This document shows positions 16,096 through 24,033 of a DNA stretch of 64,000 bases, one piece after another (the stretch's first letter is position 1; the number at the start of each line of letters is the position of its first letter). The notes under the pieces were generated by a model that was not told the DNA's origin, searched no databases, and saw nothing but the letters and a program-made list of their open reading frames with translations. Source of the DNA: Anaerotignum propionicum DSM 1682 (lineage in GTDB: Bacteria > Bacillota > Clostridia > Lachnospirales > Anaerotignaceae); NCBI RefSeq assembly GCF_001561955.1, contig NZ_CP014223.1, positions 434,001 through 498,000 on the forward strand, read 5' to 3'. The position numbers were made by a program, and so were the translations under genes.

Positions 16096-16283
16096 AAGCT
16101 CGCCTCCTTTTCTACAGTATACCATAAAATGGATGAATGAGATAAAAAACAATTTGATATATAGGAATTATATATTATAAGTGGAGGCTTTCTTTATTCC
16201 ATAAGTACGCCAATGAAAGATGGTATCATATTTTTTAGGCTTCTCCCATAGAATAAACCAAAGCAAAGTGGGAGAGGATATTT

Positions 16284-16718
16284 TTGAAAAAGAAAAAAAA
16301 GGAAAATATGAAAAAAATACAGAAAAAGAGAGATGTTATGGAAAAACAGGGAGACCAGAGCTGGACCTGTATGGCTAAAGGCATGGCCGTTGCATATGGA
16401 ATCACCTGTATTTTCTTTATCGCTTATGGGCTTATTTTAACTTACACGAGTGTTTCCGAACAAAGTTTGCCTATGGTTGCATTGGTTTGTACGGCTCTTT
16501 CCTCAGCAGTGGCAGGGTATGATTGGGCAAAATGCCGAAAGAAAAAAGGACTAATGATGGGACTGGGGGCAGGGCTTTTGTATGCAGCGATTCTTTTTCT
16601 TGTGACAGCTCTAGCCAGCGATACGTTTACCATGGGTATGTCGAAAATAATGACATTAATTGTCGCTTTGGCAGGCGGTGGAATTGGTGGAATTTTTGGG
16701 GTTAATGGGAAAAAATAA
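16284..16718 (+). CDS. TIGR04086 family membrane protein
   Basis: A 144-residue protein with a very basic N-terminus followed by four predicted membrane helices (about residues 35-58, 62-80, 90-112 and 118-140; small-residue-rich ends such as ALAGGGIGGIFGVNG). It fits the TIGR04086 family of unknown function, often found near preprotein translocase genes, as here next to secD. The start is uncertain: a TTG at 16284 follows GGGAGAGGA, while ATGs at 16308 and 16338 have weaker sites. No function is known. Confidence 0.72.
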   Translation: MKKKKKENMKKIQKKRDVMEKQGDQSWTCMAKGMAVAYGITCIFFIAYGLILTYTSVSEQSLPMVALVCTALSSAVAGYDWAKCRKKKGLMMGLGAGLLYAAILFLVTALASDTFTMGMSKIMTLIVALAGGGIGGIFGVNGKK

Positions 16719-21776: not shown

Positions 21777-21827
21777 AAAAAGCCCTATTGTTTGGCGAAA
21801 TAAGCCTAACAATAGGAGCTTTTTTAT
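21777..21827. terminator. bidirectional terminator between Nudix gene and rbgA
   Basis: AAAAAGC-CCTATTGTT pairs with AACAATAGG-AGCTTTTTT around a GGC/GCC loop stem. A and T tails on either side allow use by both convergent operons. The rbgA stop codon lies at its right edge. Confidence 0.85.
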
Positions 21828-22771
21828 TTTGTTTCTTTCCCCTTGAATTTTTGCTTACGTACTTTATCTTCTGTGGCTTTAGATGCTTCTCTTTCTGCTT
21901 TGGATTCCAACATTTCAGTGATGTCCTCTGGCAGTTCTAAGGTGATGCGTCCAAGCTTGCCACCTCTAAATTCATCCAATAAAATTTTTGCGGTGCGTGC
22001 CAAATCAGGCTCGCCACCCTTAAGTTTAAAGCTTCTTGCCTCTGCGATTTGCCTGAGTACCTCATGAGGTTCCGCAGCGGTATCAAAGGCAATTTGATAG
22101 CGTTTCCTGATGGCATCTGCATTGCGCAGAAGGAGATGGTCAATAAAGGATACCGCTAATGTCTCTGCATCTAAGATATCATCATTAATTGCGCCGGTAA
22201 AGGCAAGCTTTAAGCCTACTTCTTGATCCTCGAATTTTGGCCATAAAATACCAGGTGTATCCAGTAATTCAAAATCCTTTTTCAGCTTAATCCACTGCTT
22301 TCCTCTTGTTACGCCGGGCTTATCTCCCGTTTTCGTCATTGCTTTTCCAACATACTTATTAATGAATGTAGATTTTCCAACATTGGGAATGCCGGCAATC
22401 ATGCTGCGAATGGGTACATTAATACGGCCTCTTGCCTTCAGTTTTTCTATTTTTTCTTGCATCAGACTTCTTGCGGCATCGGTAACTTGATTCATTCCTG
22501 TTCCCTTTAGAGAGTTCATTTGAATCACACGAAAGCCTTGCTGTTCAAAATAATCAGTCCAAATTGCAGTGGCTCTATCGTCGGCTAAGTCACATTTATT
22601 CAGAAGAATAATACGATGCTTATTTTTTGCCAATGTGTCTAAGTCGGGGTTTTTGCTGCTATAGGGGATGCGGGCATCCACCAGCTCAATCACGATATCT
22701 ACCAGTGAAATGGTTTCTTCCATCATACGCCGTGTTTTGGTCATATGTCCAGGGTACCATTGAATATTCAT
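21824..22771 (-). CDS. rbgA: ribosome biogenesis GTPase RbgA (YlqF)
   Basis: A circularly permuted GTPase needed for late assembly of the 50S subunit. The 315-residue protein begins MNIQWYPGHM, the RbgA signature. G4 NKCD (about 58) precedes G1 GIPNVGKST (about 126) and G3 DTPGILWP (about 170), the permuted order that defines the family. The C-terminal helical domain follows from about 200. It is the last gene of rplS-lepB-rbgA, the usual Firmicutes order, 17 bases after lepB. The ribosome site is AAAGGAAGGAAC. Confidence 0.95.
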   Translation of the reverse strand: MNIQWYPGHMTKTRRMMEETISLVDIVIELVDARIPYSSKNPDLDTLAKNKHRIILLNKCDLADDRATAIWTDYFEQQGFRVIQMNSLKGTGMNQVTDAARSLMQEKIEKLKARGRINVPIRSMIAGIPNVGKSTFINKYVGKAMTKTGDKPGVTRGKQWIKLKKDFELLDTPGILWPKFEDQEVGLKLAFTGAINDDILDAETLAVSFIDHLLLRNADAIRKRYQIAFDTAAEPHEVLRQIAEARSFKLKGGEPDLARTAKILLDEFRGGKLGRITLELPEDITEMLESKAEREASKATEDKVRKQKFKGKETK

Positions 22772-22788: not shown

Positions 22789-23386
22789 TTAAGAAATCGG
22801 TCCGAATCCGTCAAAGGGATATAAACGAAATATAACCTTTCCGTATAAATTCTTTTTTGCAATGGGCCCGATGGATTCCCTTCGACTGTCCGAGCTGGCA
22901 TTTCGGTTATCACCCATTACAAAATAGCTTCCGTCGGGCACGGTGAAGGGATAATCAATATCGCCTTGTGTCATAATTGGTTCATTGATATAGGGTTCTT
23001 CAATCAGTTCATCATTGATATAAAGATAGTATTCTACATTTTCGCTATCTTCATTCCAAACAAGATCAATGACATCTCCGGGCAAACCAATCACACGCTT
23101 GATTATCTTTTCCTTTTGACCATCGGAATTCAACTGACATATTACAATATCTCCCTTTTTTGGGGATGCTATAGAAGTAGCTAATTTATTGACAAATACC
23201 AGATCTCCATGGTGAAAGTTCGGTTCCATAGAAGAACCCTTTACGTAAACCGTACCCAGTACAAAGGTGCGAAGCACAAAGACCAAAGCCAGTAAAAAAA
23301 GCAATTGTATCCAAAAGGGATACTCTTTTTTCTTTTTCTGTTATTTGTTCTTGCTCTTCTATGGTGCTTTGTTCCTCTTGTTCCAT
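22789..23386 (-). CDS. lepB: signal peptidase I, apparently frameshifted near its 5' end
   Basis: The catalytic part is intact: nucleophile Ser in GSSMEP, general-base Lys in IIKRVIGLPGD, and GDNRNASSDSR. The best start is ATG 23386, eight bases behind AGGAGGAG. It encodes a cytoplasmic Glu/Gln/Lys-rich tail, but that frame leaves the LepB frame before the first membrane helix. The catalytic frame is closed upstream by a TAA, and its only possible start is TTG 23304, without a ribosome site. Removing one base from A6 (23326-23331) or A7 (23294-23300) would join the halves. This could be a real mutation, slippage or a sequencing error. The TTG-initiated form would have 171 residues and retain one helix. 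Confidence 0.85.
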
Positions 23387-23464
23387 CTGTTGTCTCCTCC
23401 TGACATTGTGCATTTAACGCAAAAATCAAACCTTGAAACTGTGTTTGATCAGTATCCATCTGAG

Positions 23465-23508
23465 TTTTTTTCGTAGGCGAAAAAGATATTTGTCGCCTAC
23501 GAAAAAAA
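23465..23508. repeat. 16-bp perfect inverted repeat between rplS and lepB
   Basis: TTTTTTTCGTAGGCGA (23465-23480) and TCGCCTACGAAAAAAA (23493-23508) are perfectly complementary with a 12-base loop. On the minus strand its first seven T residues are the U-tract of the rplS terminator, so the two structures share bases. Confidence 0.8.
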
Positions 23509-23533
23509 CCTCGATGAAACAGTTCCACCGAGG
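23502..23533 (-). terminator. terminator of rplS
   Basis: On the minus strand CCTCGGTG pairs with CATCGAGG (one G-T pair) around an AAC/GTT inner stem, followed by seven T residues. It comes nine bases after the rplS stop, so lepB expression needs readthrough or its own promoter. Confidence 0.85.
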
Positions 23534-23541
23534 TAAATTTT

Positions 23542-23886
23542 TTATCTGAGTACTTCTTTTACTTTTGCTGCTTTGCCAACTTTGTCTCTCAAGTAGAAAA
23601 GTTTCGCACGTCTAACGATACCGCGTCTTACAACCTCGATATGGTCAATTCTAGGGGAGTGCAAAGGCCATGTTCTTTCTACGCCAATGCCGGAAGCAAT
23701 ACGTCTTACTGTAAAAGTTTCTCTGATGCCGCCGCCCTGTCTTTTAATAACAACGCCTTCAAACATCTGAAGTCTTTCTCTGGTGCCTTCTACAACCTTC
23801 GCAAAAACACGAATTGTATCACCAACATTAAAAGGAGTTACTTCGCTTTTCAGCTGTTCTTTTTCCAGTTCTCTAATAATATCCAT
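23542..23886 (-). CDS. rplS: 50S ribosomal protein L19
   Basis: The 114-residue protein starts [13 protein letters not shown] and contains the L19 features FNVGDTIRV near 20, [19 protein letters not shown]-type central strands and the basic C-terminus [12 protein letters not shown]19 lies at the 30S-50S interface. The ATG at 23886 is behind AAGGAGGAAATGAA, which rules out a longer in-frame start 13 codons upstream. It heads the rplS-lepB-rbgA group, with its own terminator directly after it. Confidence 0.97.
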
Positions 23887-24033
23887 TTCATTTCCTCCTT
23901 CCTTCAAAGATGTTCTTGATGCCATCCCTTTGATGCATCATTGGACCATCCGTAATCACAATTCAGAATTATAACATAGTCCCAAAGGGTGTGCAAGCAT
24001 TTTCAAGCTTTTTATCCCATATTTCAAAATTTT

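Follow-up and report, generated by a model that had tools for sequence, protein, structure and literature searches.

The lepB frame break in the Anaerotignum propionicum DSM 1682 assembly: a probable residual sequence error or recent mutation

The lepB locus and its two reading frames

The window analyzed here is a 64,000-nucleotide stretch of the Anaerotignum propionicum DSM 1682 genome (contig NZ_CP014223.1, positions 434,001 to 498,000), in which the type I signal peptidase gene lepB lies on the minus strand between its two neighbors in the order rplS-lepB-ylqF (Table 1). On this strand, TCAGGAGGAGACAACAG precedes ATG 23386-23384 and forms the strong anti-Shine-Dalgarno duplex listed in Table 1; a site of equal quality was found at 0.25% of 2000 random minus-strand sites in the window. 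The frame opened by this ATG translates as MEQEEQSTIEEQEQITEKEKRVSLLDTIAFF and runs to a stop at 23186, with no Pfam match at E 0.001, and it is contained in a 75-codon ORF that begins further upstream at the in-frame ATG 23413. The LepB catalytic frame is shifted by +1 relative to the ATG frame and opens past TAA 23343-23341, where it starts with QKKKKEYPFWIQLLFLLALVF (fuller reading, QKKKKEYPFWIQLLFLLALVFVLRTFVLGTVYVKGSSMEP). The ribosome site, the ATG, the one-base offset, and the closing TAA are all present as the original prediction described them.

The identity of the catalytic frame is supported by profile scores of 145.1 bits against TIGR02227 (cut-off 47) and 138.1 bits against PF10502 (cut-off 22.9), and its serine (in GSSMEP) and lysine (in KRVIGLPGD) align to the positions of these residues in solved signal peptidases, including 4me8. 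Ser25 and Lys69, numbered from the TTG of this frame, are invariant across the three paralogues of the genome and are presumably the catalytic pair of the signal peptidase. The gene is an ordinary clostridial lepB whose frame is interrupted by a single base within the cytoplasmic tail, an unconserved and lysine-rich part of the protein. The tail and the membrane helix share one frame with the catalytic domain in all seven same-genus relatives, but not in this assembly.

In the gap between rplS and lepB, two successive terminator-like inverted repeats were recognized by eye at 23464-23534, both within sequence that can be aligned across seven genomes. A separate promoter may serve lepB.

Table 1. 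Features of the lepB locus in the 64,000-nucleotide window (positions are those of the window).
Feature	Position	Strand	Evidence
rplS (ribosomal protein L19), intact, upstream neighbor	23542..23925	-	TIGR01024
Shine-Dalgarno GGAGGAGA ahead of ATG 23386	23393..23400	-	Duplex -10.3 kcal/mol; GGAGG in six aligned relatives
Frame from ATG 23386: first tail part, then out of frame across the membrane-helix region to the stop	23186..23386	-	
TAA closing the LepB frame upstream	23341..23343	-	
Probable break stretch in the lysine-rich tail; best fit 23333-23342; holds the A5 and A6 runs	23315..23342	-	Frame-switch scan, six relatives
TTG, first start codon in the LepB frame, without ribosome site	23302..23304	-	Duplex -3.1 kcal/mol; 20.65% of 2000 random sites equal
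A7 run (T7 on the coding strand), proposed earlier, implausible as break site	23294..23300	+	T7 in the same alignment columns of G001 and G003
Catalytic LepB frame, 171 codons from TTG 23304; signal peptidase I, Peptidase_S26	22789..23304	-	TIGR02227, PF10502, PDB alignment to 4me8
ylqF/rbgA GTPase, intact, downstream neighbor	21824..22771	-	TIGR03596

Position and age of the break

The break was located by a frame-switch scan, in which the switch was placed after codons 1 to 41, joins containing a stop were dropped, and the joined products were scored against six relatives; the scores given here are those of the best 18 positions plus chosen positions. The maximum lies at 23333-23342 (1131–1147, with 1147 near 23339), and the score at the A6 run (23327-23330) is 1107–1119. 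The lower bound of the break stretch in Table 1 is soft, the score dropping from 1147 to 1048–1077 at 23315. The tail of the relatives is poorly conserved, but a lysine cluster followed by a PFLLQM- or PVWLQL-like motif is common to them. In this genome, KKKKEYPFWIQL is already in the catalytic frame, and so is PFWIQL, which lies upstream of the A7 run and is similar to the sequence of the relatives.

The original prediction had named two homopolymer runs, A6 (23326-23331) and A7 (23294-23300), as places where one base fewer would restore the gene. Both runs exist at these positions, but they lie on opposite strands, A6 on the coding strand and A7 on the plus strand, and only A6 falls within the break stretch. 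The A7 run is not a plausible site because PFWIQL is already in the LepB frame and the frame-switch scores are low there (908–936, compared with 1147 near 23339). The coding strand also carries an A5 run (23333-23337) that the earlier account had not included. As judged by the scan, the break may lie in either the A5 or the A6 run or in the adjoining bases, with score gaps in the top group too small to pick one.

Homopolymer runs by themselves are evidence of a weak kind, since the window holds 243 single-base runs of at least six, or about 0.38 expected per 101 bases, and the chance of two or more such runs per 101 bases is about 0.06 if they are randomly spread. An A-run of at least six also occurs in the first 120 bases of lepB in six of the seven same-genus relatives, with the frame unbroken, the exception being G004 (A5).

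Apart from the break, the catalytic frame carries no second lesion, and its dN to six relatives is 0.080–0.128. The corresponding dN/dS is 0.028–0.099, compared with 0.053–0.189 among the relatives, although these ratios are rough because most dS values are saturated (mostly above 1). Five of the 28 pairs gave no dS (G000, the present genome, G001, and G003, each with G006, and G001 with G002 and G004). In a weakly supported protein tree, with four of the five inner branches unsupported, the end branch is 0.16, equal to that of G004 and shorter than that of G001. An old decaying pseudogene is ruled out by the dN/dS ratios and the branch length. The lack of decay in the catalytic frame suggests that the break is either recent or not real.

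Frame conservation and redundancy in the genus

Of 60 related genomes, 53 hold DNA resembling rplS-lepB, mostly covering rplS only. In all seven same-genus genomes (G001–G007), lepB is in frame from a start codon to the end of the catalytic domain, and a GGAGG site lies before the lepB ATG in the six aligned relatives. Scanning GTDB genomes turned up 24 loci, and the examination covered the 18 closest of them (L034–L051); the tail is in frame in all 18, five of which (L034 to L037 and L043) are the loci of G001, G003, G005, G004, and G006. A motif script applied to the 22 same-family loci (L011, L013–L033) recognized lepB in 10, in all of which the frame is already open well upstream of the motif; the remaining 12 gave no lepB match because either the flank or the motif was not recognized. 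The genome scan, which may omit near records, yielded no second strain of the species. The frame offset appears in none of the seven same-genus genomes and none of the 18 loci, and the break is seen in this assembly alone among those examined. A conserved recoding event was rejected on account of the in-frame relatives examined.

Three PF10502 genes are present in the genome, all above the TIGR02227 cut-off and all keeping the serine and the lysine. The count of signal peptidase I genes that the original prediction proposed is therefore three, and its argument that LepB is usually essential does not apply here because two further type I signal peptidases are encoded. The small effect of single sip deletions in Bacillus subtilis is ascribed to redundancy among five paralogues in the available part of one report (PMC7048088). 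On the basis of the three signal peptidase genes and this redundancy in B. subtilis, it is plausible that the cell would survive without LepB from this locus. Matches to type I signal peptidases number three in each of the eight genomes of the genus, with a fourth, weak match in G001. As three or more are kept in all eight, each of the three genes is probably under selection in nature.

Origin of the break

The A. propionicum X2 DSM 1682 genome was sequenced with 454 GS-FLX (24x) and Illumina (93x) and assembled with Newbler and MIRA, and was reported as one 3.1-Mb chromosome with seven rRNA operons, nine pseudogenes, a G+C content of 44.08%, and three acrABC clusters that were called identical (PMC4832176). 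The contig of 3,120,417 bases holds seven SSU rRNA genes, and its G+C content is 39.4% over the 464 kb read. Three PF02771 genes differ from one another, and each adjoins an ORF read by eye as electron-transfer flavoprotein beta.

For the background of frame breaks, two 200-kb samples (C1:100001-300000 and C1:2870001-3070000) were surveyed against G004 with overlap-filtered ORFs. G004 is Anaerotignum sp. MB30-C6, assembled from Nanopore and DNBSEQ reads according to the available part of its report (PMC11008126). The survey matched 264 of 391 G004 ORFs (151 of 185 and 113 of 206) and is blind to breaks in short divergent tails, that of lepB among them. It gave six candidates in the present genome, four in the first sample and two in the second. 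Four were discarded on visual inspection (antisense ORFs, intergenic ORFs, or extended starts), as was one extra first-sample candidate from an unfiltered pass. The two that were kept, both in the first sample, are a DctP-type extracellular solute-binding gene (G004 counterpart matching PF03480; C1:139691-140825, L113-L114), which is one base out of frame relative to the intact G004 copy, the break not being at a long homopolymer, and an EamA-type transporter gene (G004 counterpart matching PF00892; C1:232542-233428, L118), whose frame departs from that of G004 at a T6 run. Neither break can be called private because G004 was the sole comparison. With these two more genes out of frame relative to G004 in the 400-kb sample, frame breaks occur in this assembly at a low background level. 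In the opposite direction, 10 unsorted candidates were obtained in G004 (seven and three). Within the window, no further frameshift candidate was found against four relatives, nor against G004 at a smaller ORF limit, and one doubtful candidate (16218-16537, viewed as DNA) was obtained against a fifth relative. A separate observation concerns a TauE/SafE-type half gene at C1:226889-227431 (L118:6889-7431, minus strand), which seems to run into a separate-looking downstream gene of G004; either the two genes are fused or one of the genomes, G000 or G004, differs in frame here.

The options listed by the original prediction, namely, sequence error, slippage, reliance on other signal peptidases, and a TTG start, were a sound choice. 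We somewhat favor the reading that the break is a residual consensus error and that the full-length signal peptidase is made in the cell. A residual error in the A-rich stretch of the 454/Illumina hybrid assembly would break the lepB frame on paper, and the cell would make a normal full-length signal peptidase from lepB; the base is most likely wrong rather than mutated. The best-fit position of the break adjoins the A5 and A6 runs, and 454 tends toward indels in homopolymers, as stated in the available part of a paper using this platform (PMC3139650). The in-frame relatives, the catalytic frame without a second lesion, and the two further genes out of frame relative to G004, one of them at a T6 run, also favor an error. 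Against an error, runs of five to six are short. In addition, the Illumina reads would be expected to repair most homopolymer errors of the 454 data. The window shows no convincing further frameshift, and of the two other breaks, both judged by G004 alone, one is not at a long homopolymer. The main rival is a real and recent frameshift that became fixed in the wild or during culture; it would leave little or no functional product from this gene while the other two signal peptidases suffice. We regard it as possible, if doubtful: the three genes above the TIGR02227 cut-off with invariant serine and lysine, the redundancy of the five sip paralogues in the available part of the B. subtilis report (PMC7048088), and the DctP-type and EamA-type genes that are also out of frame relative to G004 are in line with a real mutation, whereas the retention of three or more such genes in all eight genomes of the genus and the catalytic frame free of decay speak against it.

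The other readings find little or nothing in their favor and are unlikely. Translation from TTG 23304 would give a LepB without a cytoplasmic tail, and we consider this improbable. The 171 open codons do cover the entire catalytic domain as well as the greater part of the membrane helix, and the paralogue L003 also begins with TTG under the same ORF rule, but no ribosome site precedes TTG 23304 while the strong site remains at the old ATG. Only 22 residues would stand before the GSSM-type motif, compared with 41 to 77 in the 18 loci, whose starts were chosen by an upstream purine-rich site, and the whole lysine-rich tail would be lost. By the positive-inside rule, lysines of the tail orient the membrane helix. 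The original prediction had held that an offset conserved in relatives would argue for TTG initiation; the offset is not conserved, with all seven same-genus genomes in frame, which argues against it. More doubtful still is a role of the A-rich tail in phase variation or transcriptional slippage, by which full-length LepB would be switched on and off or produced at a leaky level. Tracts for this would be provided by the A5 and A6 runs inside the break interval, but an A-run of at least six stands at the gene start in six of the seven relatives and all seven are in frame. A-runs of five to six are short for phase variation or slippage. The test of phase variation covered tracts of five to six, seven other species of the genus in frame, and one strain of this species. 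The related proposal, that through slippage on RNA or DNA a minor fraction of the transcripts would encode full-length LepB, tuned against the two paralogues, is equally hard to credit. A programmed +1 (or -2) shift of the ribosome within the overlap of the two frames could bridge the offset but is scarcely conceivable, given that the offset is absent from the 7 same-genus genomes and the 18 loci examined and that the ATG frame has no stop codon at the break site. On reading the sequence, no known +1 slippery site was noticed at the break.

If the preferred reading of a consensus error is correct, the protein set predicted from this assembly would not contain LepB in its correct form, which calls for a flag on the record; a real mutation would be a natural loss of one of the three signal peptidases kept in the genus. 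A literature search returned no paper joining A. propionicum with signal peptidase, and searches on signal peptidase, lepB, frameshift, and transcriptional slippage held nothing on this case among the matches listed; the available part of PMC10053330 does not mention "frameshift" or "signal peptid".

The gene shares the catalytic domain, the serine and lysine positions, the N-terminal hydrophobic stretch, and the rplS-lepB-ylqF locus with LepB/SipS of Firmicutes, but differs in having the cytoplasmic tail and the remainder in two frames in this assembly. It resembles the residual homopolymer frameshifts of 454-based bacterial assemblies in that the gene is otherwise intact and the one-base offset adjoins short A-runs. 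It differs in that Illumina reads were also used for this assembly. The case is ordinary whether it is an error or a mutation, and a new mechanism is unlikely.
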